Part shown: positions 1 through 64,000 of the stretch, piece by piece
Position numbering within the stretch: position 1 is the first letter of the stretch
Layout of the letters: every line of letters starts with the position of its first letter
Source: Chloranthus sessilifolius
Taxonomy: Eukaryota; Streptophyta; Magnoliopsida; Chloranthales; Chloranthaceae
DNA length: 64,000 bases
Reading direction: 5' to 3'
NCBI GenBank assembly: GCA_021018995.1
Contig: CM037585.1
Location: forward strand, 125,764,831 to 125,828,830
Notes under the pieces: model-generated
The model's input: the letters and a program-made list of their open reading frames with translations, nothing else
Database searches by the model: none
What the model was told of the DNA's origin: nothing
Program-made: the position numbers and the translations under genes

Positions 1-1084
1 GGAGGGCTGGAGTAGGAGGTGTGGTGGATGGAGGGACTGCTGCAGTAGTAGAGTTGACAGGAGCTTCCACCACCTTCTCAGAGCAGGTGCTCTAACCATC
101 TTTTTGAGAGCAAGGGTGGCCTTTGCAACAGCAGCTCCTTCTCCTTGCTCTGTAGCAACCTGAGCCTCAGTCTTCTTCTTCTTCTTTTGGAGATCCATTA
201 GACTCCTGCTGATCCCCCATTGCCTCTTTGCAAAAGTTGTAGGGGTGAGGTCATCAGTTAATTCTCCCACTGGTATCTTGTACCCCCCCCCTCAAAAGTA
301 ATTTGGTAATGAGTCTTGCATAGGGGAGAGTGTGAGGCTTCTTTTTCTGTCCTAGCTTCACCATCACATCCTTTATTGCTTCAAAAATTAACCTTGCAGC
401 ATGAAAACCGTGGCCCAGAGAAAAGGAATAAACAATATCAGCAATAGGGGTCCTCCTCTCCTGCTGATGGCCGGCACAATAAATGTTCTTTCGCAGAACT
501 TGATCAATGAACAAAAGTTTAGGGTCCAGGTCTCTTCTCCTGATGGAATCCCCTGTGGCCTTCAATCCTCTGGTAAGGGCCTGTGCAATGGTATCAATGG
601 GGGCATTCACAGGGGGGCCATATCCATAGTTGGGGTCAAAGATAGTAGGGATGCCCATTACTTCAGCAATCAACTCAGGGCTGAGTAACATTTCAAAATT
701 GTCAACTAACACAAGGAGGACTGGCTGCCCACGTTGGTCTGGTCTAGCCCTAATGTGCTGGTAAAAGAGTTGCACTAGTCTAGGGTAGGCTAGTGCAGGG
801 ATAGCTTGCAGCATGGGGGTCAAACCAGCCTTACGCATGAACTCAATGGTAGGGGTTGACAGAGGTTCCGTTTCAAAGAAAGATAGGTCAAAAACAGCTT
901 CAGGCTCCAAGGGAATGGGAGTCAGGAGCTCAGAGGGTGTAGAGTAATCAGGTGTTAGTTCAGCCACTTCCTGAACCACTTATTTCCCTTTTTGCGGCGC
1001 CTTTGAGGACTTGGCCTTCTTGGGAGTGGGCTCCACGGGAGCCTTATCCCTTGCTCTTTTCACAGGTACGCCCTTAGGGGCCAT
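1..1084 (-). pseudogene. Athila 3' accessory ORF, plant-transposon-protein (Transposase_32-like) domain, broken
   Basis: The ORF starts at an ATG at 1084-1082 with a lysine-rich N terminus (MAPKG..., several KK/KR pairs, possible nuclear localisation). An in-frame TAA at 982-980 interrupts it. The main domain runs from about 930 to 300 and shows the same landmarks in the same order as the accessory ORFs of the Tekay elements in this window: YPRLV-LFY, SIRR-DL, a K-N-Y segment, an A(R/T)-I-E segment, and PYARLI. A run of nine C at 283-291 marks a probable frameshift; the next frame stays open from there towards base 1 and contains a lysine run. I see no signal peptide or membrane segment, so an env role is unlikely. 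The domain resembles what Pfam calls putative plant transposon protein; its function is unknown. Lack of introns, the TE position and damage support a pseudogene. Confidence 0.6.
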
Positions 1085-1377
1085 TGAACTTCTCCTCTGT
1101 GAATGTGTAGTTTGAAAAATGAAAAGAAAAGGTTGAAAGCTGAGGCTTACCCTAAAACTTAGGGTTTTGTTTAATGTGATGCACAAAAGACCGCGAGAGC
1201 TCCTAGCAGGGGGCAACTGGTGGAGGAGGCTTTAGGAACAAATCCCCAGAATTAGAAGGTGAATGATGGACTATAAAAATGGATGCTGGAGGAGAGAGAT
1301 TAATGGGAGTCAGAGCTAGGGTTTCGCTGGCTGGAGAAGAAAGAGAAAACAGAAAAGGAAAGCAGCGCGGGGTTGGA

Positions 1378-1565
1378 TTATATATATCACGAGGCTTGGC
1401 GCGCTTTAAAATTATCTGCTCGCTGGATAGAAATGAGTGGGTCGCGAGATTGGATGTTCATCTAAACTGCGCGAGGAAGCCCACACAACTACGTTTGAAA
1501 CTCGCGGCAACTAAGCAGAGTAGTTCCTTATGACCTACGCGAGAGGAAGCCAAGCCAAATCTTCA
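1378..1565 (-). promoter_or_regulatory. Own promoter of the Athila accessory ORF: TATA box plus GCGCGAGG-like motif cluster
   Basis: On the minus strand a TATATATAA box sits at 1386-1378, about 290 bases before the ATG. Directly upstream, from 1387 to about 1560, lie repeated CpG-rich motifs of the types CTCGTGA, CGCGAG, CTGCGCGAGGA, CTCGCGG and ACGCGAGAG. The same motif family is clustered in this element's LTR at about 5515-6010. That the box and motifs form a promoter for the accessory ORF is inferred from position. Confidence 0.5.
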
Positions 1566-3850: not shown

Positions 3851-6190
3851 TGTTGCGAATCCCAGTGTGCTTATTTTATTTGTTGGTGGTAAAAACAATT
3901 TAAAATCAAAGTAAAACAGGGGATGGAATCAGCACAACTGAGAAATCCTAGACCTGCAAGATACAGGGTCCATTGTAGCATGTTTTGATAAGTAAGAGTT
4001 TGTCCCACAGGGAAAGATGATCTACAACTCCAAGGGAGCCATCTCTAGTAGTCCCTCCAGATCTGACTACAGATCTGGCAGTCCTAAAAGGAAGGGAGTT
4101 TAGGGTCACTTATTCTAAATATCCTAAGGTAGCCTAATGAATTAACTTCAGAAAGGGTTGAGAAGATGGATGGAGTGTGGGAGAATAAATATAAAAGGGT
4201 GAGAAGTATGCTATTGGGTCTAGATCAGAGGAGTTTTGTAACTAAGACTCAGATCTGATGTTATAGAAATCCTGTCCAATGGCTACATTATCACCACTGA
4301 GGAGAAAGAATCCAACCCATCTCTGTGCCATGATCCAATCCCTTAAGGCTATAACCTGTCCACTCAAATGGTCACAGACTATCTCATAGGGGAACCACAG
4401 TCCAGAGATGGGTCAAAACAAGTTAATCATTGTAGGCACTACTTCATTCAGGCTACAAGCTCAGGAATCCATAGGGAACCTCAACCTCTAAAGCTCTATG
4501 TGTGGAGCTAGGGCCGTATAGGACCATGTTAGCCTGCATACATAAAACCAAAGAAGGATTGAGTACAACCTTGATCTAGATGTCCATTGCTTGAGTGGGA
4601 CTACAATGGTCCATCACAAGCCCACAATCTCCATAACCAGATCGGATCTAACATCCGATGGCGGGTCTATACAATATAGGGAGTGCCTCATACAATCTCC
4701 CACAAGGCTACAAGCATATGTGCAGAGAAGAAGAATCCATCTTGGGTCCTACGAATTGGCTTCACCCTAAGGCTATAGCCTGTCCACTTGAATGGTCATA
4801 GACTATCCCAGAGGCTATCCTCCTCATAGAGTCCAAAATAGAACAGTAATATTGCTGCCACCACCATGGTCACAAGGCTACCAGCTCAGGCTCCCATGGG
4901 GATTTCAGATCTAGTGGGTCCTGTGGTGGGGCTAAGGCTGTATCAGACCATGATAGCCCAGACACACAGGTCACTTGGATCTGAATGGATCCTTAGAATC
5001 AGTCCTTCATTGCTTTAAATCACAGCCAAAGCAATGACAGATCACAAGGCAGCAGCCTTGCACAGAGCAACTCTCATTCGCACACATCCCATAAAATTAC
5101 ATATCCTATTACAAAACATCCATTAAACTAGTTCAAAAATACATACAAAGGCATAGCCAGCAAGTGCTGGACTATGGAGAGAAAGAAAAAGAAAAAAAAA
5201 AAAAACTACTTACAACTACAGAAGAACAGGAAAGAAAATGATCTCAGATCCCGTATCAGTGATAAAGTCTGAGCTCTTAAACCTAAACCAAGTTTGGGTT
5301 TATTTAACAGCGGTGTGGCGGCGCATTAGTGTTAGAAAACCCTAATTTTAACAATGCCACGTGGCCGAATACTGTTCCTTAAATGCCTCAGAGTGCGTGC
5401 ACAGAGATTTGAGCATGGGAGTGCGTGCCCTAATCACTGGAAATCCCCAGAATGTCCTCTACAGAATGATGGAAGTTGGAGTTCAGAGCTTCGCTAGGTT
5501 GCAGTCGATTCCCAGACTTATCGCGTGGTAGCACTGACTTCGCGAGGATGAGTTAGCATTAAAACTTCAGACGTCGGGGGTTGCAGCTTCTTGATGCTTT
5601 GAGCAGTCGCGAGGTAGATATTTAAGCTCTCGCTAGATTGGGCTTCGTGTAGTTGGATTGCTACTTGTGAATAGCGCATGAACTGCGCGAGCATTCCATT
5701 TCATAATAGATCTTCGGGAGGCTAACTCTGGCTTCGCTAGGCTGCTTTCTTCCTGAACAGCGCGAGAACTTCACTTCTTAATGAAACTTCGCGAGGATCC
5801 TCGTGAGGCTTTGATAGTTTCTAGACTGCGCGAGAGGTTCTCTTGACAATGCATCCCATGGCTATCAACACAATGCCCGAGGCAGGATTCTTAGTCTTGC
5901 TACTCAATCTGAGAAGTTGTTGTGAAGTCTTGGGAATTCGCGAGGACTGCACGAAGCATATTTTTCTGAATCCTCTGAAACTTTGGGAAGCTGCGCGAGG
6001 CGCTTCTCAGGTCTGGATTCAGTTCTCATTCTTCTGAGGGACTTCTGGGATCAAAATAGGCTCCTTAACAGGATTTATGGCCTTATTGCACTGCTGTTTA
6101 TTACCTACAAAAATAGCTTAACAAACATTTATTAAAGGGCTAAGGGCCTAATCATAGGTTAAGTTAAGGGGTGAAAAGTGATACTTTTCA
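3851..6190 (-). repeat. 5' LTR of the Athila element (2,340 bp)
   Basis: The plus-strand ends are TGTTGCG at 3851 and CTTTTCA at 6190, a TG...CA pair. The limits were set by comparison with the homologous lone LTR at 33630-36287, which shares text at both ends, including TTTGATAAG and GTTTGTCCCACAG near the left end and GTGAAAAGT at the right. The part at about 3990-4990 is rich in short repeated phrases such as AGATCTGACTACAGATCTG and CTATAGCCTGTCCACT. Confidence 0.8.
5515..6010 (-). promoter_or_regulatory. GCGCGAGG-like motif cluster in the Athila LTR
   Basis: At least ten copies of a CpG-rich motif occur here, for example TTCGCGAGG (around 5540 and 5790), GTCGCGAGG (about 5607), GCGCGAG (about 5685, 5760 and 5829), TTCGCGAGG (about 5936) and GCGCGAGGCG (about 5993). 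The lone Athila LTR has the same type of cluster at about 35470-35960. The same motif precedes the accessory-ORF TATA box at 1378. The cluster lies in the LTR half that precedes the expected transcription start on the minus strand. A regulatory role is inferred. Confidence 0.45.
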
Positions 6191-6305
6191 GGTCTTAACA
6201 AGTATCTCCAAACCTGAAAAGAGAAGTAAACATGAAAGATATGTCAGAGGCAGGACGAATAAGTAGCAAATGAACCAAGAGGAGTGAGAGAATCTAGGGT
6301 TACCT

Positions 6306-7241
6306 CTATCGCAGGCCAGAAACCAACAACGGAACCCAAATCCCCAATCGAGGCTCAAGCCAAGCCATACATCAGCACGGTGTACCCGGCCCCGCCCCAG
6401 TCATATTGGTGCACATTATCCCAATTTCCCATAAGACTAAGCAGGGACAATGAGACTCGATCTCCGCTAGCATTAGAAAAAAGAGTCTTGCTCAGAAGGA
6501 AAAGGAGCGAGATACGAGCCAGCATCAAGGCACGCTCAGGCTCAATGGGGATATCCATATCCAACTGATTCGGATCCACTAATTCATCCTCACTAAACAG
6601 ATCGACCAACCAAGACAATTTAATGTCGGAGCCACTCATATCCCGAGAAGAGACGTAATCCTTGATCAGTTGTACCACCTCGCCCCGAACCGGTACCCGA
6701 AGGCCAACCACTGGTGTGCCCCCTATCCCAATCCCCGTAATCATCGGCCAATCAACTGGAGTGATGGTCATCTCGACCACTGACATGTGAAAAGTCATGG
6801 TCTCGGGCCGAAAGCATTCTATCAAGGCCTTTAGATAGGCCGAGTCGCCCCTTTTGGTAGGGCACAAAAGAAAATCTCCAAAGCCGGCCTGGGCTAGGAG
6901 GAACTTCACAACCGGAGGAAGGAGGACGTAAAGGCGTTGGAGGTCGAACCAACCTCCGCAAAAATGAATCAAGGGCAAAGACTGTAGTAAAATGAAGAAA
7001 GTGTTAGAAAAATAAGGCATGCGTAAAAGAAAGCCACCAAAAAGTTATTTTCTTACCTTGCCGGCAATCCCAAAGTCTGAAATATGGGCATACTGTTGAT
7101 GAAGTAGACCGATGTGAGCCGCCTCGCCCTGCATCTCGTACCAAATCCGGGAGGAGCGCTGCACTGCAATAAACCGCTCCCCCAGAGGACCATAGACCAG
7201 CTCAGGATCCTCCTCGTGCCTTGCTTCTCTTCACTCGACAT
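6306..7241 (-). pseudogene. Antisense PMD (plant mobile domain) gene of B1
   Basis: PMD proteins are plant-specific; the cellular members MAIN and MAIL1 act in the nucleus, and many others are TE-borne. The landmarks are GWFDLQRLY, a long LLPPVVKFLLAQ helix, FRPETMTFHM---EMTITPVDWPM-TG (the PMD core, about 6830-6720), WLVDLFSEDEL, PERA-MLARISLL and YDWGGAGY. An intron of 75 bases is likely: donor GGCAAG|GTAAG at 7057/7056 and acceptor ACTACAG at 6982, with exon 2 from 6981. A second donor, GAG|GTAACC, is near 6306. The ATG at 7241 follows a CCCTCAG acceptor, as in B2, suggesting a 5'-UTR intron. A one-base shift after the ATG and a stop at about 6355 break the frame. It is antisense to the retroelement, so the element's genomic RNA would not lose these introns. 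Confidence 0.65.
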
Positions 7242-8082
7242 TCTGAGGGAGACACAAGCAACAATACCAAGAGATGTCAGTAAGGAGAAACCAATTGCTG
7301 CGAGCCAAAAGAAGGTAAGTATGCTCCATTCATTTGCCATCAATCATAATCATCATCATTTCAGAAAATACATAAAAAAGGGGCTCCCAAAGCGCCCCAC
7401 ATTACAATATATATATATATACATATATAAACAAAACAAAAACCAAACAAAAAATAAAAATAAAAAAAGAAGAATAAAGAACTCATTTTCTGTAACTTTA
7501 CAAAGTTTTGATCAAGATCCCCGATGCACATGGACTATGGGTAGGGATGCTTTCAAAAAATATATATATCTCACGCGTAGACACAACAGGGCGCAAATCC
7601 AAAAAAGAGAGAGGGCCGTAATCACACCAAAAAAAAAAGAAAGAGAAGAAGAAAAGAAGAAAAAAAAAAGAGATGGGAATAAGGCACCATCTAATCTTAC
7701 TTTCATTTAAAATCAAAAGCCATTGCATGCAAATCAATTAAGTGGATCATAGATAATCATATTCACAATAGAGATCATTCATTTGTCACATAAAAATGCA
7801 AGAATCCTAACCACATTGAAAATAACTCAAGAAAAATCAAAAGAAATAGGGCTAAGAAAAAAGAAAAGAAAGGAGAGAGGATTACTTTGGAGAAAAATGG
7901 ACCCTTGATCCGGCGTGGAACATACGTTTGATCGGCGAGAGTAGACGTCGGCACAATGATGGGGTTCAAATTGATTCAAGAGAACCCTAGGAAGAAGTCC
8001 CGATTCGGTTTAGAGAGGAGGGGGGAAGAAATTTTTGAAAATAACCTCAGGCCCAACAGTTTTAAAACCACCCCCAGGTCTG
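7242..8082 (-). other. 5' untranslated and intron region of the B1 antisense gene
   Basis: No ORF is credible here. The stretch holds A-rich runs (about 7420-7480 and 7625-7670), dinucleotide AT tracts, a leader-like segment with CCCTAGGGTT on the minus strand (about 7990), and GTTTTAAAAC (about 8060-8069) as a TATA-like sequence facing left. Its homologue in B2 is about 43811-44560. Confidence 0.4.
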
Positions 8083-8160
8083 GCTTAGAGTGTATAATAT
8101 ACATGCTAGGCTTATACTGGCCATATTTGGCTTAACGTGTATATTATACAAGCTAAGCTT
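8083..8160. promoter_or_regulatory. Two B1-type palindromes upstream of the antisense gene
   Basis: Site a (8083-8113) and site b (8129-8160) each have GCTTA/TAAGC-like ends around a TGTATAATATACA-like core and are imperfect dyads. The equivalent B2 sites (44564-44590 and 44613-44638) keep the outer sequence but have a different symmetric core. The sites lie just upstream of the TATA-like GTTTTAAAAC on the minus strand. Confidence 0.5.
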
Positions 8161-8430: not shown

Positions 8431-8693
8431 AGGCACGTACTCCCAAAAGCATTCTGATATCAATTCACTCCACTCAGGTAGTCGTGCTAAATTAACTTCG
8501 GGATTGATGGGTTTGCATAAAGACTTCAAACCCTACTTCACGTAGGGGCACCAGTGGTCGGTCAAATGGGGAAATCAATGCCTCGTATGATCGAACACAA
8601 GCTGTGGATCTTCATGTATTTGCTTCGCGCCTATCTTTAAGTATGGGTCGATCGCCCTTTCACTCATGGAGTTGTTTTATTCAGAATGAAACT

Positions 8694-8961
8694 TATAATA
8701 TCCCCAAAAATTGAGTGACAAACAGTGATCTCGAGATCCGTGCCTGATTGATCGTAGGCTGACCAAGTGATGGTCAAACAGTAGAATTGAGAAGGGAAGT
8801 GTTTTATGATGTAGTATGACCCTAAGCATAGTGTATGGTGTTAGTTGGGAGTCACATACACCTATCTGTGGTGTATATGCTCAACACCTAAGTAAGAGGG
8901 GTTATAAGAGTTTTAATACCTAAGAGAAGTTATTTCTCTTGGTTGGTTGGTGAGAGAGTTA

Positions 8962-9009
<48 letters not shown>

Positions 9010-11265
9010 AAGGGTAAATGCTAAGGAGGTTGAGGCATGTTGTGAATTTAAGACGGGATCGAACAATAAATGCTGGATTCAACGTGATTGGAATCATTGG
9101 AGCAAGAGCTGGAACCCTGGCCATCTAAATCAACCATTCAATCAATTAGGAGATTGATTTGAGGTAAGTTTTAGCTAGATTTAATTGAGTACATTATTGT
9201 TTATTAACTCTAGGGGAGATGGGTTAAATTATCAAATTTAAATGATAGAAAAGAAAGAAAAATAGAAGGAAAAAGATTTGGAAGAACAGCCCGAGAAGGG
9301 GTTGAGTTCTGGCCAAATCAATTAATCGATTTGGAAAATCGATTAATCGATTTTGGTTCGAAAGTTGAAAAAGCAAAAAGGCCCGAGTTCGATTAATCGA
9401 TCTTGAAATCGATTAATCGATTTTGAAATTCGATTAGTCGATTTAGAAATCGACTAATCGACTGGGTACCTCCAGTGGATGGAGGGATAAGGCTTGGGAA
9501 AATCGACTAATTGATTTGAGAATTGATTAATCGATTATGAATTTCGATTAATCAATTTGGGAATCGATCAATTGATTGTGGACTTTCGATTAATCGATTT
9601 GGGATCGATTAATCGATTTTAGATTTTGATTAATTTATTTGGGAATCGATTAATCAATTTAGGGTTCGATTAATCGATTTTGGAGATCGATTAATCGATT
9701 TTGGCTGTTTTAGTTGAATTCTTTGTTGAACATTGAGGTTCATAGAGGGTCTTGGACCTTCTCTATTGCCTCTTTATTGATGCTGTGCATATGTTATGAT
9801 ATACCATAGGTGGTATGAGCTAAGGCAAGCCTGAGGAGCCGTGTGGGACCTTGATGCTTGGACAGTCAGACACCTGAGGTAGGGAACACTTTGAACATGT
9901 ACTTTGACTACAAGAGCATGTATGTAGTGATATAGAAATAAAATGAATCATATAATCTCCATGTGTGTGTGTGTGTGATACACCAATGAATTGAAAATGC
10001 TTAAATCATATAATCCTCTCAGTATGTATGTGTGTGTGTATGTGACACCAAGTAAACATATGAAAATGAGACATCTCCAGGGGATGAGAAAGTGATAAAG
10101 GCATCAGTGTGATGCGAGTAATTTAGACATTCCAGGGATGTAAGTGAGATTGTAAAGTAAGATTGAAAAAAGACTGATAAGGCCTAATTGATATAAAGTA
10201 GCACATTTATACGGTGAATAACTATATGTAAAGCACCTGATATTTTTGTTTTTTAAGGTTTGAACATAATACCCCACCGACGTGGCGGGATACCCACGAC
10301 GGACTCGACAGGATATTCGTGACCGGTATGGTGGCCAATCCGTACACCGGTACGGCGGTCTATCCGTACACTGTAGCACATCTCAGGGATATTGAGATGA
10401 GATTAAACCCCGTTGCCTATGAGAAAGGGACCTGGGTAGTATTCAAAGTGATATATTCATAACAACTGTCTATTTAGATGACGATGGAGGGTATTCCATC
10501 GGGGTTCGATGCTATATTACTCGGGGACTACTTAAGTTGAAAATTTAAGTTTCTTTAGGCCTATTCAGTGAGGTTCATGAACAGTTGATAATAAATGTAA
10601 CATGTAAACCACCAGTAAACTTCAATGCATATTGTAATCTTTTAAACTGTTTTCCAACAAGTTCATAAATGCATCATGCTAAGAATATCATGGGATATAT
10701 GTGAGGATTTGACTTATATATTTATTGTGTTGTTCCCTATTGAGCTAGGATGTAGCTCACCCTTTAGACTATACATCGCAGGTCCTTTGCTTGCAGCCGT
10801 AGAGGCTTCGGGAGATGTTGATTCGGGGGATTTAGACTACGTGCCAGGAGACGAGTTAGAGCCTCCTCCCGAAGACTTCTTCTAGGAGACTCCGCTGTGT
10901 ACTTGTTAGAGAGAGTTTTAAGAGCATATTGTGTGGCTTGGTATGTCAAACTTTTATTTTAAGAAATAATATAATTAAATAGATATATTCTTTTGGCGAA
11001 CCATCTTGGGTGACTAAGTGATGTCACTGATGGTTCGGGTGGGTTCTTTTACTCATGCAGAGGCATGAGTTTAGAACCATCTTATGGATTATAGATTCTG
11101 GAGTATATGTATAGAACTGAAGATTTAATACAGTATCAGTTCTTATGCGATCTTTCTCTTTATGATTGTTTGCTATGCCAATGTTCCGTACGTATCCATG
11201 GGGCATGGTCTGGAGGATCATGCTGATGGCGTGGGTTTCGGGGTGCCAAAATTTGGGCTGTCATA
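8694..11265 (+). repeat. A1 5' LTR (2,572 bp)
   Basis: It starts TATAATATCCCC, a decayed form of the TGTAATAGCCCG start seen in A2, and ends GGGCTGTCATA (A2: GGGCTGTCACA). The limits are confirmed by the target duplication and by the 3' LTR copy at 18844-21355. An (AG)n run fills 8965-9004, longer than in the 3' LTR (about 19114-19131). TG dinucleotide runs occur near 9963 and 10030. No ORF inside it is credible. Confidence 0.85.
9316..9702. repeat. TCGATTAATCGA palindrome array in the A1 5' LTR
   Basis: About twenty units of the 12-bp palindrome TCGATTAATCGA or one-step decays such as TTGATTAATC, AATCAATT and TCGACTAATCGA are spaced irregularly by roughly 3-20 bases. A perfect unit is at 9605-9616. 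Spacers are short and partly related (TTTGGGAA, TTTTGGA). The same array is in all four Tekay LTRs and twice more beside the accessory-ORF promoters. Confidence 0.85.
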
Positions 11266-16066: not shown

Positions 16067-16336
16067 GAGTTAAAAATTGTATCACCGCAAGCATGTTTGC
16101 AGATTTAAACTTTTTGTTGTAATCTAATGTTGACCATTTGGCCAATTTATCCAATGGAGAGAATGTTAATAGAAAATTGTGCTATGATGCGATGTAGAAT
16201 GCATGGTCAAGAGTCATCACACCAGCCAATGATTATGAAGACCTACTTCACAAAACCAATGACCCACTGGTCATGCACTACCAAGAAAACAAAGGAGACA
16301 TAAAAACAAGAAAAAATTTTAAATTTATGATGAAAA
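16067..16336 (+). other. Spacer after A1 pol
   Basis: This non-coding stretch links pol to the palindrome array. I see no ORF or structural signal in it. Confidence 0.4.
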
Positions 16337-16866: not shown

Positions 16867-16877
16867 TATATATAAAA
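16867..16877 (+). promoter_or_regulatory. TATA box of the A1 accessory ORF
   Basis: TATATATAAAA lies between the palindrome array and a C/T-rich leader with TAGGGTTT, 224 bases before the ATG. A2 keeps the same box, spacing and array position, which argues for a real separate promoter. Function is inferred. Confidence 0.6.
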
Positions 16878-40199: not shown

Positions 40200-40220
40200 C
40201 TCCATGTAAGGGAGATTTTT

Positions 40221-46708: not shown

Positions 46709-46742
<34 letters not shown>

Positions 46743-47385: not shown

Positions 47386-47544
47386 CTTCCATTCCTCAGT
47401 AAACACAATTTCAAAAATGTGGCAGCCCATTGTACAACGATAACTGTAATTCGTTATTTTAAAATGTCTTATTATTCATTACTCATATAATTAGTATTTT
47501 GTAATATGAGTGACCCTTCACTAATCACGGCTTAGACATTACAT

Positions 47545-47945
47545 CTACAGGTTTTAATTCCGTTACACATTGATACTGGCTCCCATTATGCGTTAGTCCG
47601 TGTCGACCTCAATGAGAAAACAATTTATCTCTTAGACCCATCGGTCAAGCCAGCATTCGGCTGTGGAAACATCACACTCATGCCTTGGTAAGCAAATTAG
47701 TGGGTTATTTAATCTATTAATTTATTTATCATCTTATGTACTTCGTGTTTATGTACTCGATTTATTTCAGGCTTCTCACCTCCTGCAGTTGCTATACTTG
47801 AATGGACCAGACAACGTGCTCGAGAAAGCTCTTTCGTGGCCACTATTCTTCACTAACGGCCTCCCAAAATAGCCTCAAGGATTGATGGACTATGCATTAT
47901 TCGTGCTAAAAAAACACAGAAAATATTATGGTTGGGAGAGAAGGT
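47545..47945 (+). pseudogene. Catalytic end of the Ulp1-like (C48) protease gene, dead copy
   Basis: Ulp1 proteases cleave SUMO or related tails; TE-borne plant relatives are common. The first exon carries IPLHIDTGSHYALVRVDL, where H of SHYAL and D of LLDPS fit the catalytic His and Asp (47555-47690), and ends W|GTAAGC. A CAG acceptor precedes ASHLLQLLYL at about 47770. The region around the catalytic Gln and Cys reads PK-stop-PQG then MDYALFV (47865-47910): a TAG stands near the Gln and Tyr replaces the Cys expected in DC-x-FV. A donor-like AAG|GTAAGT follows at about 47942. The gene belongs with 24560-27541 on the other side of B2. Confidence 0.55.
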
Positions 47946-48590
47946 AAGTTCCAGTTTGGAGTGGAAGAGAGACTTGTTTTTCGAAAGCAATGCGTGTCTG
48001 ATATTCTCACATATCAGCCTCAAACATGTCAGTAATTTTGTGCTATTTTCAAAAAAATGATAGTAAAAAGGCAAACAATTCTAAGTGGCCCAGAAATTAT
48101 TCAAATGGATGAGACAAAGAGTCATTTTTAGACTCTCATTGCTGGTTTAGGGTAGATCTGTATGATGAGTTTGTTGATGGTAGTAGTTTGAGAATTTGTG
48201 ATATTTTATGCTGAAGTTTTGAATTTGTGGATGGCAGCGGTTTGAGAATTTCAGAATTTGTACGATGAATTTGTGAATTTGTGGTTGACAGTCATTTTTA
48301 GACTGCATTATGTCTGTTATGAGTTATTTTGCCACAAACAGATACTTGTGGTTGATTAATGCAGATATTTATGAATATATATTGAATGTCTTAGATGTTT
48401 CACTACCTGCATATTGCAGGTACTTATGATATTGATGCTGCAGATATTTTAATCAAATTGATAATGCAGTCCAGTAGGCTCATTGTTAATTACCGAATTT
48501 GATCATGCAGGACATTTCATTGGATTTTTCATGTCTTAGATGTACTGGCTGTGTATTGCAGGGATTGAATATTGTCAGTGACAAATGAGG
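47946..48590 (+). other. Region between the Ulp1-like gene and the right repeat block
   Basis: Mostly AT-rich and non-coding. A phrase like GTTTGAGAATTT and GAATTTGTGGATGGCAG recurs (48180-48290), and ATATTGCAG or GTATTGCAG recurs (48410-48560). No ORF is credible. Confidence 0.4.
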
Positions 48591-48711
48591 AATATGTTTG
48601 ACTGTATAATACAGGTTGATGCATGAGATGAGTGGGTGACATAAATTATTTATTGACTCTTCTCGTGTGAGACTTGTAGGCTCCAAATATGATAGCCATT
48701 TTTCATGACTG
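48590..48711. repeat. Left end of the GAGTCATTTACTGACTC repeat block, cut by A2
   Basis: This has CATTTTTCATGACTG, TATTGACTCTT and GAGACTTGTAGGCTCC, matching units of the block at 61668-63800. A2 separates the two parts. Confidence 0.7.
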
Positions 48712-51171
48712 TGTAATAGCCCGAAAAATCACGCTAAACTATGACCTCGGGATCTGTGCCCGATCGGTCACAAGTTTGACCAATTAGGAGTTCGATAATT
48801 AGCATAGAGTGTGATGAGTGAATGTGATGTGATGGTTTGTGTAGCAATGTGGTGTGTGTTGAAAATCTAAAGTCACATACACCTATTGAGGTGCATGGGC
48901 TCAACACACAAACTAGGAGAGAGATAAAAAGGGTTTAATAACCCTAAATGTGTGTTTTTGGGTTGTTGAGAGAGGAGTAAAGAAGAGAGAGAGAGGAGTA
49001 AAGAAGACTAAACAAGAGTTATTGTGTGATTGGAGGGGGGGATTTTAGCATTTAAGAGGTCGATTTAGCGAGGAGAATCCGTTCAAGCTAAAGCTGGAAC
49101 CCTAGCCTTTCCAACCATGGATTTGAAATCAATTTGAGATCGATTCAAGGTAAAAAAAATTTTGTGAATAAAATGCATAGATCGTAGGGGCTAAATGGTA
49201 GTTGAAAATGGGTTAAATCTTAGGATAATGGTTTAGAAAAAATAGAGGAAAAGTATGGAAAAGATTAGAAAATTTCGAAAGAAATTTGAATCGACAATTT
49301 TGATTAATCGAAATTGGGTTTCGATTAATCGAAATTGGCCAGGAAGTTGAAAAGTCAGAGGACCCCGATTTCGATTAATCAATTGAGTTCGATTAATCGA
49401 CTTTGGATTTCGATTAATCGACTGGGCACCTCCAGTGGACCCAAGGGGGGCTGGAGGAAAGGATTTGGGAAAATCGACTAATCGAAATGGGAATTCGATT
49501 AACCGATTTCAATTTTCGATTAATCGATTTGGAATCGATTAATCGATTTTAGGAACTCGATTACTCGAATTGAGAATCGATTTCATTGGTTAAAGGAATT
49601 TCGATTAATCGAATGAGAATCTCGATTAATCGATTTGAGAATCGATTAATCGATATTGACTTTTGATTAATCGATTTTAGGAAATCGATTAATCGAATCA
49701 GATTCGATTAATCGAATTGGAGTTCGATTAATCGACTGAGAAAATTTATGTTGACCTTTGAGTTTGACTTTAAGATTCTTGGAGGGTCTTAGACCTTCTT
49801 TATTGCATCCTTTGTGATGTGTTTCACCTGTTATGTGGTACCATAGGTGTGCGTGTGACGATGCACAAGGAGCCACGTGGGACCTTGATGCATTGATCAA
49901 ATGAAGACTTGAGGTAGGGAACACCTTGAATATGTACTTTATTTTACAAGAGCATGTATGTAGTGATATAGAATTCAACTCAAATGTTTTATTGCTTAAG
50001 AATTGTAAAAAGTGTGTGTGCGTGTGACATTCGTAAGAGTAATCATAATGAGCCATCCTGTGGGATGAAGAAGTAAAGAGACAAGAGCATCGTGTGTGAT
50101 GTAGTAAATGGATACATCCTGTGGATGTATCCAAGATTGAATCATGTTTGATAGGCCTAACCGATATAAGATAGCACACTTACACGGTGAATAACTATAT
50201 GTAAGGCAATCATATTTTTGTTATTTGAGGTTTGATAGGTTACGGATATCCACGACACGGCAGGATATCCGTGACCGATACGTGCGAAACCGTGAGGCCG
50301 GCGGAGGCTTATCCAGTACATAAGCGCACACGTGGGTGTTGATTTGAGACAAGTGAAACCCGCCACCAATCCCTGGAAAGGGGCTTGGGTACTATATGGT
50401 ATTCCCAGGGAATACGTTAAAACTGTCTATATAGATGACGATGAAGGGTATCTCATCGGGGCTCGATGCTATATTGCTCGGGGATTACTTAAGTTGAAAG
50501 TTTAAGTTTTGCTTTAGGCCTTTTCAGCATCATTAATGAATAAATGAAAACATAAGTGATTAACAGTAAAAAAATGAAATGCTTTTAACTGTTTTCATCA
50601 ATAACTGCATAGACACATCATGCATGACATATCATAGAATATATGTGAGTTATAATTTATATGTTCAACTGTGTTTGTTCCCTATTGAGCTAGGATGTAG
50701 CTCACCCTATAGACTATACGTCGCAGGTCCACTACTAGCAGCTGCCGAGGCTTCAGGAGACGCGACCGGTGAGTCGGACCTTGCGGCGAGACGAGTTGGA
50801 GCCACCTCCCGAGGACTTCTTCTAGAGGACTCACAGCCGCTTTGAGGGCTTTTAGAGAGATTTTGTACGGCTTGGTATGTCAAGCCTTGATTTTGTTTAA
50901 AACCATGTATATAAGGAGTTGGGATTATTCTTTTGGGACGAACCATCCGGGATGATTGCTATCATTGATGGTTCGGATCGGTTCTCCATTCATGCAGAGG
51001 CATGAGGGTAGAATTGTCTTTTGAGGAGTTGCTTTTGGGGAGTTGATTAATATAGATTTAAATTCCGCAATTTCGTTTATTATTCTATTGCAATGCTTGA
51101 TATACCAGTGTTCCGTGCTTAGCTAAGGGGCATGGTCAAGATGGCACGGTTTTGTCAAATCCGGCCGCACA
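48712..51171 (+). repeat. A2 5' LTR (2,460 bp)
   Basis: The ends are TGTAATAGCCCG and CCGCACA. The first 1.3 kb is close to the 3' LTR. From about 50040 it has many small losses at G/C runs relative to the 3' LTR, for example CATCCTGTGGGATG against CATCCCCAGGGGATG, and the end itself is shortened. Confidence 0.85.
49290..49740. repeat. TCGATTAATCGA array in the A2 5' LTR
   Basis: About twenty units occur. A perfect 12-mer is at 49685-49696, and a 16-base palindrome ATTCGATTAATCGAAT is at 49702-49717. Most units keep both CG pairs, unlike A1. Confidence 0.85.
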
Positions 51172-56439: not shown

Positions 56440-57055
56440 GATTTCAAATCGATTAATCGATTTGGAATTTCGATTAATCGATTTTGTTCGATTAGTTGAC
56501 TGGCATGTGCCAGTGACTGGAAATGAAAATGAGAGTTAGAATATACATAGGATGCAATTTCAATTGATCGAATTATAATTTCGATTAATCGATTTGGGAT
56601 CGATTGATCAATTTTGGGAATTCGATTAATCGAATTGGGAAGTCGATTAATCGAACTGCAGGTTCGATAAATCGAACAAATTGGGAATGTTAGAAGAAAT
56701 TGAAGTCAGAGAGACGATTTCGATTAATCGAAGTGAAATTCGATTAATCGATTTTGAAATTTCGATTAATCGAATGGGGTTCGATTAATCGAATAACTTA
56801 AAGAATCCTAAAATTTTTAGAAGTTACTGCACGATTTCGATTAATCGAAATGGATTTCGATTAATCGACTGGCTCGCGCCAGTGAGCTCAAAAATTTAAA
56901 ATTTTAAACAGATACGATTTCGATTAATCGAAATGGTTTCAATTAATCGAATTTGACTTTCGATTAATCGATTTGGGAAACCGATTAATCGATTTTACGC
57001 GGCTTAACCTAGTTTTGAATCTCGATTAATCGATTCTGAATTTCGATTAATCGAG
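56440..57055. repeat. TCGATTAATCGA array upstream of the A2 accessory ORF
   Basis: More than twenty-five units, most with intact CG pairs, end 8 bases before the TATA box. A second inverted motif is embedded: CTGGCATGTGCCAG (56500-56513) and CTGGCTCGCGCCAG (56869-56882), each following an ATTAATCGA or ATTAGTTGA unit and followed by TGA. Confidence 0.85.
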
Positions 57056-57063: not shown

Positions 57064-57072
57064 TATATATAA
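57064..57072 (+). promoter_or_regulatory. TATA box of the A2 accessory ORF
   Basis: TATATATAA sits between the array and a C/T-rich leader, 211 bases before the ATG at 57283. Position and context match A1 at 16867-16877. Confidence 0.6.
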
Positions 57073-57282
57073 AAATTTGGGGATTTCATTCCCCATTCGA
57101 AATTATGTTTGCTTGAGATTTTTGGGCGTTTCACCTTCTTCCTCTTCTTCGACAATCCGGTGCCCTAGGGTTCCCTTTCTCCGACGGTTTTTCGGCTCGC
57201 ATCGCCATCAAAACCTACGGGTAACCCTAATTTCGCACTTTTCTTTCAAATTTAAACTAGATAAACCCTAGATTTTCTAAGA

Positions 57283-58849
57283 ATGCCGCCCAAAACCCGG
57301 CTATCTTCAAAGAAGGCGACTTCTAAACTCCCGGTTAGGCGTAAGAACGCCGCGCCACCACCACCTACCCCATCGCCGGTGAGGACTCCATCTCCGTCGG
57401 CATCGGAGACCACCTCCGGTTCGACGAGCGCATCCTCGCGCGAGTCTTCCCGTGAATCGACCCCAATGCCCCCACCACCCACTAACGTGGTACAACCAAA
57501 CGAATGGTGGGCGGCCAAGACCTTTGAGGTCGAATACATTATCGACCCTACCCTATTCACCGATCCCGATGTGCCGGGCGAGACCCAATGGGCTCGAAAC
57601 TATCTTAACAATGCCGGTCTCGGCAACCTTCTCAAACCAATCCGGGGTTCCTACTACCCTAGATTGGTGAGATTATTCTACCGACGACGTGGTTAAGACC
57701 ACCATTGAGGGTCGGGTGTACATAATCACCCGTCACCACATACACGAGGTGCTTGAATGCTACCTCGACTTTACCCCAGAGACTACCCTATTCCCACCCT
57801 TCGAGGAGGACCCTCGATTCGAAGAAATCATGACCCGTATGACCAACGGGAAAAAGGGGTCGGGATCCTCCATTAAGAGGGTTGACCTTCCAACCTACAT
57901 GTGGATGCTTGATTCAATAATCAAGTGCAACCTCTACCCTATGCGCCACGATACGGAGCGCGTGGACAAAGTGCAACAGGCACTTTATGCGGCCTTCTGT
58001 GGCCGATGGTTTGATGCTACCATGGTCATCCTAGAAGGGATGAGGTACATCAAAGGGAAGCTGATGAAGGGCAACATGCGGCCCAAGGAGAAGATGCCCT
58101 ACGCTCGCCTGATATCGAGCATGTTGGAGTGCTACTCCGACGATCCCTCCTACACCGTCTCTCCTCACGAGATGAGGGCTACGGACTGCGTGAAGACATT
58201 CTCTCGGTCTTCATGGGCCCGTAGCTATAACCTACTAAAGCGGCCCCTGCCGGCTCCGGGTCTCGCTCCAGCAGCAGTCGCAGCAGCAGCAGTAGCACAG
58301 CCACCACCCCCACCACCTCAGCAGGACCCACCCGTGGGTGGGGCACACCCTATCCCCGCCGAGCCATCCATGGAGAGGGTTCCCTCTCACACCGCAGCCT
58401 CACCGATGCCACCTACCCACTCCGCGCCCGCGACACCCACCTCCTCATACCGCCGGCGCGCCGCTCCATCCGGTCCTACCATCGAGGACGTGTTGGCTCG
58501 CATGGAGGCCAACAACGAGCGGATGAACCGGAGGATGGACTTCTTGATGTTCCACACCCTCCGCTACATCTACCCGACGGACTACCACCGCTACCTCGCC
58601 CAGGAGGAGGAGTGGACCGCTGGACGCACCGCCTTCCATCGAGGACCCGTCTTCCATCCTACCCCAGCCACTACAGACGCGGTTCCTTCCACATCTGCCT
58701 CCGCTCCGCCGACTGAGACGCTTCCACCACGGTCGCCACCACCGCAGCCGCAGCCAGCTCCAGCAGACCCGCCAGCCACTGTAGTACCGTCACCTCAGAT
58801 GGAGCAGCCTGCTCCAGCACCAGACCTGCCTGGCGGGGGGATTGCATGA
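57283..58849 (+). pseudogene. A2 accessory ORF (plant-transposon-protein domain), one frameshift
   Basis: Starts MPPKTRLSSKKATSKLPVRR, basic and possibly a nuclear signal, then a proline/serine/threonine-rich segment. The domain has NEWWAAKTFEVEYIID, WARNYLNNAGLGNLLKP and YYPRLVRLFY. Around 57675, about 20 bases present in A1 are missing, shifting the frame; the second frame (57689-58849) is uninterrupted: HIHEVLECYLDF, SIKRVDLPTYMWMLDS, NLYPMRHDTERVDKVQQAL, GRWFDATMVILEGM and KEKMPYARLISSMLECYSD. A proline-rich linker, a helical VLARMEANNERMNRRMDFLM segment and a long proline-rich tail follow. The codon-level conservation between A1 and A2 suggests past selection. No signal peptide or membrane span, so not env-like. 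Confidence 0.7.
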
Positions 58850-59129: not shown

Positions 59130-61667
59130 TGTAATAGCCCGAAAAATCAAGCTAAACTATGACCTCGGGATCTATGCCCGATCGATCACAAGTTTGACCA
59201 ATTAGGAGTTCGATAATTAGCATAGAGTGTGATGAGTGAATGTGATGTGATGGTTTGTGTAGCAATGTGGTGTGTGTTGAAAATCTAAAGTCACATACAC
59301 CTATTGAGGTGCATGGGCTCAACACACAAACTAGGAGAGAGATAAAAAGGGTTTAATAACCCTAAATGTGTGTTTTTGGGTTGTTGAGAGAGGAGTAAAG
59401 AAGAGAGAGAGAGGAGTAAAGAAGACTAAATAAGAGTTATTGTGTGATTGGAGGGGGGGATTTTAGCATTTAAGAGGTCGATTTAGCGAGGAGAATCCGT
59501 TCAAGCTAAAGCTGGAACCCTAGCCTTTCCAACCATGGATTTGAAATCAATTTGAGATCGATTCAAGGTAAAACAAATTTTGTGAATAAAATGCATAGAT
59601 CGTAGGGGCTAAATGGTAGTTGAAAATGGGTTAAATCTTAGGATAATGGTTTAGAAAAAATAGAGGAAAAAGTATGGAAAAAGATTAGAAAGAACAACTC
59701 GAAAAGGGGCTGAATCTGACAATTTCGATTAATCGAAATTGGGTTTCGATTAATCGAAATTGGCCAGGAAGTTGAAAAGTCAGAGGACCCCGATTTCGAT
59801 TAATCGAATTGGAGTTCAATTAATCGACTTTGGATTTCGATTAATCGATTTAGTATCGATTAATCGACTGGGCACCTCCAGTGGACCCAAGGGGGGCTGG
59901 AGGAAAGGATTTGGGAAAATCGACTAATTGAAATGGGAATTCGATTAATCGATTTCAATTTTCGATTAATCGATTTTAGGAACTCGATTACTCGAATTGA
60001 GAATCGACTTGGCTGAACAGTGAATTTCGATTAATCGAATTAGGATTCGATTAATCGAATGAGAATCTCGATTAATCGATTTGAGAATCGATTAATCGAT
60101 ATTGACTTTCGATTAATCGATTTTAGGAAATCGATTAATCGAATCAGATTCGATTAATCGAATTGGAGTTCGATTAATTGACTGAGAAAATTTATGTTGA
60201 CCGTTGAGTTTGACTTTAAGATTCTTGGAGGGTCTTAGACCTTCTTTATTGCATCCTTTGTGATGTGTTTCACCTGTTATGTGGTACCATAGGTGGTACG
60301 TGTGAACTGATGCACAAGGAGCCACGTGGGACCTTGATGCATTGATCAAATGAAGACTTGAGGTAGGGAACACCTTGAACATGTACTTTATTTTACAAGA
60401 GCATGTATGTAGTGATATAGAATTCAACTCAAATGTTTTATTGCTTAAGAATTGTGAAAAGTGTGTGTGCGTGTGACATTCGTAAGAGTAATCATAATGA
60501 GCCATCCCCAGGGGATGAAGAAGTAAAGAGACAAGAGCATCAGGTGTGATGCAAGTAAATGGATACATCCCAGGGATGTATCCAAGATTGAATCATGTTT
60601 GATAGGGCCTAACTGATATAAGATAGCACACTTACACGGTGAATAACTATATGTAAGGCACCGATATTTTTGTTATTTGAGGTTTGATAGATTACCCCAC
60701 CGACGTGGCGGGATATCCACGACTGACACGGCAGGATATCCGTGACCGATACGGCGGCGAAACCGTAGGCCAGTGCGGAGGCTTATCCGTACATAGTAAG
60801 CACACCCCAGGGGTGTTGATTTGAGACAAGTGAAACCCCGCCACCAATCCCCAGGGGAAAGGGGCTTGGGTACTATATGGTATTCCCAGGGAATACGTTA
60901 AAACTGTCTATATAGATGACGATGAAGGGTATCTCATCGGGGCTCGATGCTATATTGCTCGGGGATTACTTAAGTTGAAAGTTTAAGTTTTGCTTTAGGC
61001 CTCTTCAGCATCATTCATGAATAAATGAAAACATAAGTGATTAATAGTAAAAAAATGAAATGCTTTTAACTATTTTCATCAATAACTGCATAGACACATT
61101 ATGCATGGCATATCATGGAATATATGTGAGTTATAATTTATATGTTCAACTGTGTTTGTTCCCTATTGAGCTAGGATGTAGCTCACCCTATAGACTATAC
61201 GTCGCAGGTCCACTACTAGCAGCTGCCGAGGCTTCAGGAGACGCTGACCCCGGTGAGTCGGACCTTGCAGCCGGAGACGAGTTGGAGCCACCTCCTGAGG
61301 ACTTCTTCTAGAGGACTCCGTTGTGCCGCTTTGAGGGCTTTTAGAGAGATTTTGTATGGCTTGGTATGTCAAGCCTTGATTTTGTTTAAAACCATGTATA
61401 TAAGGAGTTGGGATTATTCTTTTAGGACGAACCATCCGGGATGATTGCTATCATTGATGGTTCGGATCGGTTCTCCATTCATGCAGAGGCATGAGGGTAG
61501 AACTGTCTTTTGGGGAGTTGATTAATATAGATTTAAATTCCGTAATTTCGTTTATTATTCTATTGCAATGCTTGATATACCAGTGTTCCGTGCTTAGCTA
61601 AGGGGCACGGTCAAGATGATCGTGCTGATGGCACGGGTTTTGGGGTGCCGAAATCCGGGCTGTCACA
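59130..61667 (+). repeat. A2 3' LTR (2,538 bp)
   Basis: Starts TGTAATAGCCCG and ends GGGCTGTCACA. It appears the cleaner of the two A2 LTRs. The palindrome array is at 59715-60180 and has unit differences from the 5' LTR, for example an extra ATCGATTAATCGAC unit near 59855. Confidence 0.85.
59715..60180. repeat. TCGATTAATCGA array in the A2 3' LTR
   Basis: About twenty units are present. Unit gains and losses relative to 49290-49740 must have arisen since, or during, this one insertion. Confidence 0.85.
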
Positions 61668-63800
61668 GATTGGTTCCGATATGAGTCATTTACTGACTCT
61701 TATAAGTCAAAGTTAGAGTAATGTGATACCTGTAGGCTTCAAATCTGAGACTCGTATGAGATCAGCCATGCTAGACACCGCGAACATTGATGTACCAATA
61801 GGAATTTTGACTTGGTCCCATATGAGTCATTTACTGACTCTTATTAGTCCAGGTTAGACTTAAGTGAGACCTATAGGATCCAAATATGATAGACAATGAG
61901 ATCAGTTATGTTAGACACCACGAAGATTGATGTACGAATAAGAATTTTGAATGACTTGGTTCCATATGAGTCATTTACTGACTCTTATCAGTTCAAGTAA
62001 GACTCATGTGAGACCTGTAGGCTCCAAATCTGATAGCCAATGAGATTAGTCAAGTTATAGTCTGATAATAGTAATGTACCAATAATCATTTTTCATGACT
62101 GGGTATGATATGAGTCATTTATTAACTTTTATAAGTCCAAGCAAGACTAATGTGAGACCTGTAGGCCCCAAATCTGATAGTTAATGAGATCAGTCTTATT
62201 ATAGTCTAAAAATTAGTGACGTCCAAAAGGGGATTTGGCATGACAGGGTCACATATGAGTCATTTATTAACTCTTATCAGCCCAAGTAAGACCTTATGAG
62301 ACCCGGCTTTCGAGAATCATATGAGAGCAATACGTAACTGAACGAAGTAATAGATTTACCAATAGAGATTTTGTATGACTTGGTCTCATATGAGTCATTT
62401 ACTGACTCTTATCAGTCTAAATCTAAGACTCATGTGAGATTAGCCATGCTAGACATCGCGAACATCGATGTACCAATAGGGATTTTGGATGACTTGATCC
62501 CATATGAGTTATTTACCGACTCTTATCAGTCCAATTCTAAAACTCATGTGATATCAGTCATGCTAGACACTGTAAACATCAATGTACCAATAGGGATTTT
62601 GCATGACTTGGTTTCATATGAGTCATTTACTGACTCTTATCAATCCAAGTAAAACTCATGTGAGACTTGTAGGCTCCAAATCTGAGACTCATATGAGATC
62701 AATCATGTTAGACACCGCGAACATTGATATACCAAGAGAGATTTTGCATGACTTGGTCACATATGAGTCATTTACTGACTCTTATCAGTCCAAATCTGAG
62801 ACTCATATGAGATCAGTCATGCTAGACACCATGAACATTGAGGTACCAATAGGGATTTTGCATGACTTGGTCCCATATGAGTCATTAACTGACTCTTATC
62901 AGTCCAAGTAAGATTCATGTGAGACCTGTAGGGTTCAAATCTGAGACTCATATGAGATCAGTCATGTTAGATATCGCGAACATTGATGTACCAACAGGGA
63001 TTTTGCATGATTTGGTCCCATATGAGTCATTTACTGACTCTTATTAGTCCAAATTTGAGACTCATGTGAGATCAGTCATGCTAGAAGCTGCGAACATCGA
63101 TGTACCAATAGAGATTTTGTATGATTTGGTCCCATATGAGTCATTTACTGACTCTTATCAGTCCAAATTTGAGACTCATGTGAGATCAATCATGCTAGAC
63201 ATCGCGAATATTGATGTACCAATAGGGAATTTGCATGACTTGGTCCCATATGAGTTATTTATTGACTCTTATCGGTCCAAGTAAGACTTATGTGAGATCT
63301 GTAAGCTCCAAATCTAAGACTCATATGAGAGCAGTCAAGTTATAATATGATATTAGTGATGTATCAATAACCAATTTTCATGACTGGGTCTAATTTGAGT
63401 CATTTATTGACTCTTACTCTTATAAGTCAAAGTAAGACTCATGTGAGGCTTGTAGGCTCTAAATCTGATAGTCAATGAGATTAGTCTTGTTATAGTCTAA
63501 AAAATAGTAATGTACAAAAGGAGATTTGACATTACAGGGTCACGTATGAGTCATTTATTGACTCTTATAAGTTCAAGTAAGACTCATGTGAGACCTGTAG
63601 GCTCCAAATCTGATAGTCAATGAGATCAAGCTTGTTATAGTATAAAGAATAGTGATGTATAAAAGGGGATCCAAATTTGATAGTCAATGATGTCAGCCAA
63701 GTTATAGTCCGATAATAGTGACATGCCAATAAGCAATTTACCTGTACTTGGTCTCATATGAGTCATTAACGGACTATTACAAGTCCTACAGAGACTCATG
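61668..63800. repeat. GAGTCATTTACTGACTC tandem repeat block, right of A2
   Basis: About sixteen units, each carrying the inverted pair GAGTCA-TTTAC-TGACTC and TTATCAGTCCAA, GAGACTCATATGAGATCAG, ATGCTAGACACC and GATGTACCAATAGGGATTTT. Spacing is about 117 bases in the regular middle part (62370-62880) and up to about 150 elsewhere. The middle units are open in one plus frame with a 39-residue period. The block adjoins the Ulp1-like gene locus and may be a subterminal array of that transposon. Confidence 0.75.
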
Positions 63801-64000
63801 TGAGTCCAGTAGGCCTTCGAGGAATGGGTTGAATAACACCAAATTGAAAGAACACTCCCCAGTTCAGACATATATATGCATGATAATAAACCTCAGCTTC
63901 TATTAGTAGACTAGAAATCTGCTTCACTTTTTCCTTAAAGCTATTGAGACCCATCAATAATTTTAAATAATTTAATCATCTCATCTATCATATTCGTTGC
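63801..64000. other. Unassigned end of the window
   Basis: AT-rich sequence outside the repeat block. I recognise nothing in it. Confidence 0.4.

Follow-up and report, generated by a model that had tools for sequence, protein, structure and literature searches.

The 64-kb window (the whole stretch of DNA analysed here, from contig CM037585.1 of Chloranthus sessilifolius) consisted of nested plant Ty3-type long terminal repeat (LTR) retrotransposons, and clusters of short motifs were found both in the LTR and upstream of the core promoter of an accessory gene in five elements (Athila-1 and the two elements each of Tekay and Tat). The accessory gene was present in 5/5 elements having motif clusters and a visible internal region. 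An earlier reading of the same DNA (the original prediction) had reported such clusters and proposed that the accessory proteins, like the VANC proteins of Arabidopsis VANDAL transposons, could be sequence-specific factors for the motifs of their own element; the observation held and was stronger than first reported, and the interpretation was partly supported (see below). The window was organised as follows:

1-6.2 kb, minus strand: Athila-1
6.2-8.69 kb plus 21.36-23.19 kb: 3' part of Tat-A, split by Tekay-1
about 8.69-21.36 kb, plus strand: Tekay-1, with target-site duplication (TSD) AAACT, nested in Tat-A
27.55-47.38 kb: Tat-B, with an LTR pair and TSD CTTCC, inserted in a locus with Ulp1-like coding fragments
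33616-36289, minus strand: LTR-like copy of Athila-2 (from self-BLAST), lying within Tat-B and bearing a CGCGAG-type cluster, now decayed, at about 35420-35960
48.71-61.67 kb, plus strand: Tekay-2, with TSD GACTG/GATTG, inserted in the same Ulp1-type locus as Tat-B

The lineage names were those of the original prediction; element structure, domain matches, and sites resembling primer-binding sites were consistent with them. Tekay displayed gag, reverse transcriptase (RT), RNase H, and integrase domain matches plus LTR pairs with TSDs, and Athila displayed a gag match plus an LTR; the sites resembling primer-binding sites after the LTRs presumably agree with the lineage names, that of Tat being TGGCGACTC. 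Rfam and tRNA scans of the window found nothing.

Six motif types were counted across seven element territories: five were confined, wholly or very nearly so, to their own element, and the sixth, CGCGAG of Athila, was enriched in its own. Within the window, 90/90 TCGATTAATCGA sites lay in Tekay, 5/5 A-type palindromes in Tat-A, and 13/13 B-type palindromes in Tat-B. The statement that clusters stood beside a TATA box applied to the accessory genes, whereas the LTR clusters were placed well upstream (in Tat, the LTR TATA box followed about 280 bp downstream; in the Tekay-2 LTR, the distance to the TATA-like box was about 1.2 kb). Chance was considered as the source of the clusters and rejected, the counts of TCGATTAATCGA, CTGATATCAG, and the Tat palindromes being far above expectation or simulation.

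The two Tat elements displayed the clearest differences, and their relevant features were as follows:

6355-7250, minus strand: Tat-A antisense accessory gene carrying a plant mobile domain (PMD; PF10536, 62.4 bits, cut-off 34.9), with inferred exon limits and a frame change in the upstream exon region
8084-8157: A-type palindrome pair ahead of the Tat-A accessory gene (sites 8084 and 8131), with the TTTTAAAA box at 8060-8067
21358-23190, plus strand: Tat-A 3' LTR region, with A-type palindromes at 22041, 22088, and 22166 and a TATA box near 22469
27545-29218, plus strand: Tat-B 5' LTR, with B-type palindromes at 28041, 28088, and 28186, a TATA box near 28495, and TSD CTTCC
30041-30162: three B-type palindromes ahead of the Tat-B open reading frames (ORFs) at 30.5-31.4 kb
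40945-41018: B-type palindrome pair ahead of the second antisense ORF (39444-39812) of Tat-B, one site being split by an inverted-repeat insertion
42974-43558, minus strand: antisense exon of the Tat-B accessory gene, sharing 52% identity with the PMD exon of Tat-A
44564-44638: B-type palindrome pair ahead of the Tat-B accessory gene, with the TTTTAAAA box at 44541-44548
45733-47384, plus strand: Tat-B 3' LTR, with B-type palindromes at 46192, 46239, and 46336

The 27-bp Tat palindromes (at most nine mismatches to either consensus) numbered 18, namely 5 in Tat-A and 13 in Tat-B, and were located in the LTRs and at the antisense accessory promoters; 20 Markov simulations scanned alike on both strands gave 0-2 sites (mean 1.0), a comparison that was partly circular because the consensus sequences had been derived from those very sites. 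The palindromes were paired 47-48 bp apart in the LTRs, the internal 5' cluster, and the accessory promoters, and third sites followed in the LTRs at 78, 98, and 97 bp. At both accessory promoters, the palindrome ended 15-16 bp from the TTTTAAAA box, which was preceded by ACCTGGGGG.

Tat-A and Tat-B palindromes shared the outer arms CTTRGCG/CGCYAAG and the centre TAWTA, but this one frame held two different cores between arm and centre: (i) TGTA in 7/10 and TG in 10/10 half-sites of Tat-A and (ii) CAAC in 14/26, CATG in 5/26, CATC in 3/26, and others in 4/26 half-sites of Tat-B, with a CA start in 23/26. At orthologous sites, the inner 8 bp of Tat-A and Tat-B were identical in 3/24 and 2/24 positions (LTR) and 2/16 positions (accessory promoter), with identities of 0-25% between the elements, as against 60-62% in the surrounding alignment; inner identity was below the local background (P of 2e-6, 6e-8, and 9e-5). 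The LTR and accessory cores within one element agreed at 0.88 in Tat-A and at 0.71 and 0.75 in Tat-B. The 20-21-bp spacer within the palindrome pairs displayed the opposite pattern, with identities of 0.75-0.85 between LTR A and LTR B and of 0.52-0.62 between LTR and accessory promoter, although the accessory spacers of Tat-A and Tat-B agreed at 0.67, only slightly above the latter values. The Tat core therefore tracked the element, while its flank tracked the locus; 17/18 sites were used in this comparison, the split site at 40945 being omitted.

Three further observations concerned the Tat palindromes. ACCTGGGGG was conserved just downstream of them at three Tat antisense promoters (8071-8079, 44551-44559, and 40179-40187), where it was followed by TTTTAAAA at two and by TTTATAG at the third. 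The insertion that interrupted a Tat-B palindrome ahead of the antisense ORF was an inverted-repeat element at 40206-40954 (arms 40313-40527 and 40782-40956). The centre TAATA/TATTA resembled TATTA of the VANC21 motif YAGTATTAY as given in the available text of PMC5735166, a resemblance that may be due to chance.

The sequence comparison was also applied to Tekay-1 and Tekay-2, with the following features:

8692-11265, plus strand: Tekay-1 5' LTR, paired in self-BLAST with 18844-21355, with the 5-bp TSD AAACT on both sides
9318-9698: TCGATTAATCGA array in the Tekay-1 5' LTR, spacing mostly 19-22 bp
16336-16856: TCGATTAATCGA array ahead of the Tekay-1 accessory gene
16867-16877, plus strand: TATA box of the Tekay-1 accessory gene
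17101-18422, plus strand: Tekay-1 accessory gene, PF20167-like, disrupted by a frame change between 17436 and 17475 as well as by an in-frame stop at 17808-17810
18844-21357, plus strand: Tekay-1 3' LTR, with array 19444-19792
48712-51170, plus strand: Tekay-2 5' LTR, with array 49300-49735 and a TATA-like box near 50908
56449-57054: TCGATTAATCGA array ahead of the Tekay-2 accessory gene
57064-57075, plus strand: TATA box of the Tekay-2 accessory gene
57283-58849, plus strand: Tekay-2 accessory gene, PF20167-like and broken (frame change between 57671 and 57696)
59130-61666, plus strand: Tekay-2 3' LTR, with array 59725-60181 and TSD GACTG/GATTG

The 90 TCGATTAATCGA sites (at most one mismatch) compared with 0.19 expected and were divided into 38 in Tekay-1 and 52 in Tekay-2, where they were found in both LTR arrays and in one internal array per element ahead of the accessory ORF. 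Site spacing was mostly 19-22 bp (two helical turns), and both internal arrays stopped 9-10 bp before a TATATATAAAA box. The motif core was the same in both elements, but the base after it differed, being mostly CGA|T in Tekay-1 and mostly CGA|A in Tekay-2: the CGA|T to CGA|A counts were 24:5 (5' LTR) and 20:9 (internal) in Tekay-1, and 11:18 and 11:26, respectively, in Tekay-2. Accordingly, the next base differed between elements (p 0.0003-0.003) and agreed between loci of one element (p 0.36-1), values that were optimistic because array units were not independent. Motif columns were 0.89-0.96 identical between Tekay-1 and Tekay-2 and spacers 0.63-0.68, with gapped columns omitted and Tekay-1 being without some of the units there. 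The co-divergence comparison proposed with the original prediction was thereby made on a small scale, with two element pairs: the motif differed in step at the LTR and at the accessory promoter, clearly in Tat and in a milder form in Tekay.

Further palindromes were presented in the Tekay elements. A second palindrome box, CTGGCNNNNGCCAG, recurred within the internal arrays at 16408, 16670, 56500, and 56869, the two copies in Tekay-2 being exact and the two in Tekay-1 one letter off, with no other exact copy in the window; another palindrome, TGGATACATCC...GGATGTATCCA, was found in both Tekay-2 LTRs (50109-50133 and 60559-60585).

Athila-1 displayed the same arrangement with a motif that was not palindromic:

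254-1084, minus strand: Athila-1 accessory gene, PF20167 (45.5 bits, cut-off 45), with an in-frame stop at 980-982
1377-1388, minus strand: TATA box of the Athila accessory gene
1388-1545: CGCGAG-type cluster ahead of the accessory gene, with CACGAG touching the TATA box and exact sites at 1443, 1470, 1501, and 1538
3853-6203, minus strand: Athila-1 LTR, limits drawn by eye, with a CGCGAG-type cluster at about 5490-6000

CGCGAG on both strands gave 21 sites (20 with overlaps merged): 13 in Athila-1, 2 in Athila-2, and 6 elsewhere. Of the Athila-1 sites, 12/13 fell either in the LTR cluster or in the cluster ahead of the accessory TATA box, with cluster limits drawn by eye, and the density of the LTR cluster was reached by random placement in 2/5000 trials. 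At the accessory promoter, it was a CACGAG variant that abutted GATATATATAAT, and exact CGCGAG sites started 55 bp upstream. As no pol ORF was seen between the gag region and the accessory gene that came after it, this copy, the far end of which lay beyond the window, looked non-autonomous.

The accessory proteins of Athila and Tekay were homologous (BLASTP E 5e-16); Athila passed the PF20167 cut-off of 45 narrowly, while the two Tekay proteins stayed below it (17.2 and 15.5 bits). The Tekay accessory genes were under purifying selection, their pieces giving nonsynonymous-to-synonymous substitution ratios (dN/dS) of 0.12, 0.17, and 0.18 at amino-acid identities of 0.70-0.76, compared with 0.06-0.09 and 0.86-0.89 for the slower RT and RNase H/integrase pieces; these Tekay ratios were rough because dS was near or above 1. 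The Tat-B exon by itself scored 11.5 bits for PF10536, and synonymous sites of the Tat exon were saturated between Tat-A and Tat-B (pS 0.75, pN 0.32). All accessory copies in the window (Tekay-1, Tekay-2, Athila-1, and the Tat copies) looked broken, those of Tat showing a stop or frame changes ahead of their main exon, unless these were due to unrecognised introns. No protein relative was found in a large protein database seemingly poor in plant proteins, where one search scored the 8000 candidates sharing most words; viral contigs scanned by motif and by protein held no relative, and the Tat-A PMD piece, when compared with PDB sequences, had two matches only, with E about 1.

The remaining motif arrays belonged to the Ulp1-type locus into which Tat-B and Tekay-2 had been inserted:

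23191-27544, 47385-48711, and 61667-63850: pieces of the Ulp1-type locus, split by Tat-B (TSD CTTCC) and Tekay-2
23201-24252: CTGATATCAG array in the left part of the locus
24548-24967, plus strand: ORF between the CTGATATCAG arrays, with a sub-threshold DUF1985 match (E 0.3)
25321-25872: second CTGATATCAG array
47536-47691, plus strand: putative Ulp1 peptidase fragment on the far side of Tat-B (PF02902, E 9e-4, 19.5 bits as against a cut-off of 20.7)
61667-63850: GAGTCATTTACTGACTC array, where the locus continued beyond Tekay-2 (15 sites at no more than two mismatches)

The CTGATATCAG sites (at most one mismatch) numbered 46, compared with 2.6 expected, and 44 of them lay within this locus, which bore out the reported arrays around it; its two ends differed in their arrays, with CTGATATCAG at one and GAGTCATTTACTGACTC, in 114/145-bp units, at the other. 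No transposase match was found among the scanned pieces, which covered part of the locus, and BLASTP gave no link between the ORF of the locus and the two PMD pieces.

A concerted difference that is dispersed over separate sites and confined to the core would be caused most simply by an element-specific trans-acting DNA-binding factor, and we lean, by a small margin over the opposite, towards each family encoding its own trans-acting factor that binds a private motif at the LTR and at the accessory promoter, this factor most likely being the accessory protein. The latter was the best candidate because it was found in all five elements, was selected at least in Tekay, would have its own promoter among its targets, and has a precedent in VANC; judged from these sequence features, the chance that it is indeed the self-encoded binder of the motifs may be put at about even. 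The accessory protein, of the PMD type in Tat and of the PF20167 type in the other two lineages, would be made from its own promoter and would most likely bind the short family-specific motif as a dimer or in arrays; the bound motif, clustered at the accessory promoter and in the LTR, would sustain its expression, and the protein would thereby keep active the LTR of its own family and of no other.

The original prediction was supported by the pairing of motif and accessory gene in three lineages, by signs of motif constraint, and by the concerted motif difference, but motif CpGs had decayed like others and DUF1985 matches remained sub-threshold. An anti-silencing outcome of the accessory protein, suggested by analogy with VANC, was given as a tentative proposal that falls somewhat short of even chances, and removal of silencing, rather than plain transactivation or autoregulation, would be more weakly inferred than binding itself. 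The CpG observed/expected ratio was 2.2-2.9 in the Tekay arrays, as against 0.4-0.9 elsewhere in those elements; the arrays being still CpG-rich suggested upkeep of the motifs in active lineages prior to insertion.

Several results weighed against this reading as a whole or in part. (i) When 5' and 3' LTRs were compared, the motif CpGs decayed since insertion were 11/28 in Tekay-1 and 6/34 in Tekay-2, as against 22/53 and 12/56, respectively, for other CpGs; motif CpGs thus decayed as often as others, with no sign of lasting protection in these copies. (ii) VANC domains were not found above cut-off, the DUF1985 match in Tat-A reaching E 0.01 (16.3 bits, cut-off 35.1) and DUF287 not being listed for any of the 10 scanned pieces. 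(iii) Comparison by hhalign gave no usable link between the profiles of the Tat and Tekay/Athila accessory proteins (E 0.013 at a probability of 3%), and one VANC-like family for all of them was therefore not supported; AlphaFold models of the Athila and Tat-A pieces (pLDDT 40.3 and 33.8) were too poor to reveal a DNA-binding fold. (iv) The Tekay accessory gene evolved no faster than gag (gag dN/dS 0.15, identity 75%). (v) Unrelated arrays of one Tekay element, when aligned, also gave 0.87-0.89 for motifs as against 0.56-0.60 for spacers, and part of the Tekay motif/spacer contrast was therefore an alignment effect. (vi) The inner/outer split of the Tat palindromes and both consensus sequences were chosen after the sites had been seen, array units and 5'/3' LTR pairs were not independent, and only two element pairs were available.

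The accessory protein might also bind the motifs as a plain transactivator or autoregulator with no effect on methylation, comparable to retroviral Tat or CACTA TnpA. This version of the main explanation, compatible with its first part, would fit the motifs just upstream of the accessory core promoter boxes, the lack of CpG protection in the 5'/3' LTR comparison, and the regulatory roles proposed for antisense accessory genes in the available text of PMC11963269 and PMC7264820. The distance of about 1.2 kb between the Tekay LTR arrays and the LTR TATA-like box was less easily accommodated, and the high CpG observed/expected ratio of those arrays would be odd if methylation played no part; on its own, this version appeared rather unlikely.

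The main rival to a self-encoded binder was a host transcription factor, for which motifs such as CTTGGCGCAAC and TCGATTAATCGA would be enhancer boxes, the same factor serving the LTR and the accessory promoter and the sister Tat elements having switched to host factors with different specificity. Tnt1 and ONSEN use host factors, the motifs sat at promoters, and palindromes would suit dimeric host factors; moreover, co-divergence across the promoters of one element would be expected under any trans factor, and, as a further point against the self-encoded reading, this pattern would equally arise from a host factor, given a switch of host factor in each lineage. It would, however, need a separate switch for each family and subfamily despite a single host genome, and all five motif-cluster elements with a visible internal region also had the accessory gene, which made a host factor unlikely, with perhaps a chance in four.

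Neutral concerted evolution, in which one repeat unit would spread by tandem duplication, gene conversion, or template switching with no trans factor at all, could produce the tandem arrays of the Tekay and Ulp1-locus motifs, and templated mutation can render palindromes symmetric. The Tat-B sites, scattered over about 18 kb, nevertheless shared only the core while their spacers tracked the locus, conversion would have to halt at about 8 bp site after site, and Tekay spacers were more diverged than motifs, although alignment favours motifs; such neutral spread was considered improbable. Action of the Tat palindromes as genomic-RNA hairpins (11-bp stem and 5-nt loop) rather than DNA sites was the most improbable of all: the stem-loop geometry and the two-sided A/B difference would agree with it, and the sites would be in genomic RNA, but the loop was TAATA or TATTA regardless of strand, orthologous sites flipped, and neither the 12-bp Tekay motif nor the non-palindromic Athila motif would form such a hairpin, judged by sequence.

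Taken together with the self-encoded reading, at least three Ty3-type lineages may carry self-encoded, sequence-specific anti-silencing or transactivation systems in which PMD and PF20167 proteins co-evolve with private motifs, a generalisation held with clear reservation. Extra genes without known function have repeatedly been reported in plant LTR retrotransposons, according to the available text of PMC6317226, PMC7264820, and PMC11963269; should these accessory genes encode regulators that are specific to their family and have target motifs readable from sequence, what they do could be put to the test. Under the generalisation above, VANC would represent one instance of a widespread design, host PMD silencing proteins (MAIN/MAIL1) would be relatives of such a factor, which would offer a rationale for the origin of PMD silencing proteins, and the one-by-one escape of retrotransposon families from silencing in large plant genomes would be partly explained. 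Accessory ORFs with PMD, PF20167, and TRP28 domains are already known, as are the antisense placement of such ORFs and the presence, in elements of this kind, of tandem repeats specific to a family. No report of a motif common to the LTR and the accessory promoter, or of its co-divergence, was found in the open-access literature, covered mostly at listing level, where a sunflower paper of 2026 refers to VANC and considers whether the ORFs of retrotransposons might modulate methylation (available text of PMC12844716).

Several known systems were comparable in part, each as described in the available text of the source cited. PMD is carried in an extra ORF by 57% of Ogre elements (PMC6317226), and Tat-A likewise had PF10536 in an extra ORF above cut-off; in other plant elements, too, such genes have been described in antisense orientation between pol and the 3' LTR (PMC7264820), and no cis motif partner of the Ogre/Tat PMD elements is described in the portions seen of these two papers. 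PF20167 (Transposase_32) is reported in sunflower Athila, which Athila-1 matched with an accessory piece just above cut-off, while sunflower Tekay has a 5' accessory ORF without known domains (PMC11728184), unlike the Tekay elements here with their 3' sense accessory gene homologous to that of Athila. Retand/TRP28 (PF04195) elements are comparable in having accessory genes in antisense orientation and tandem repeats specific to the family, with DNA binding predicted and a regulatory role suggested; PMC11963269 leaves the function of the Retand repeats unknown and draws no link between repeat and protein in the text seen, and PF04195, unlike in Retand, was not matched in the four antisense Tat pieces scanned. 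VANDAL/VANC of Arabidopsis remained the closest counterpart. VANC proteins, which carry DUF1985 and DUF287, bind motifs clustered within their own family, protein and motif co-evolving, and VANC21 is reported to cause methylation loss over the element without a rise in transcription (PMC5735166). VANDALs and the present elements shared (i) an accessory gene together with a short motif that is specific to the family (here, within the window) and forms clusters, including tandem arrays, in the non-coding part of the element, and (ii) a motif that differs between related families, which here diverged together at separate loci in two element pairs; however, VANDALs are Mutator-like DNA transposons, whereas the elements in the window were LTR retrotransposons with PF20167 or PMD proteins, and their Tat sites were spaced palindrome pairs. 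CACTA/Spm offered a last parallel, its TnpA being reported as an element-encoded protein that acts on its own methylated promoter. TnpA has repeated sites, as the proteins proposed here would have, but CACTA is a DNA transposon.

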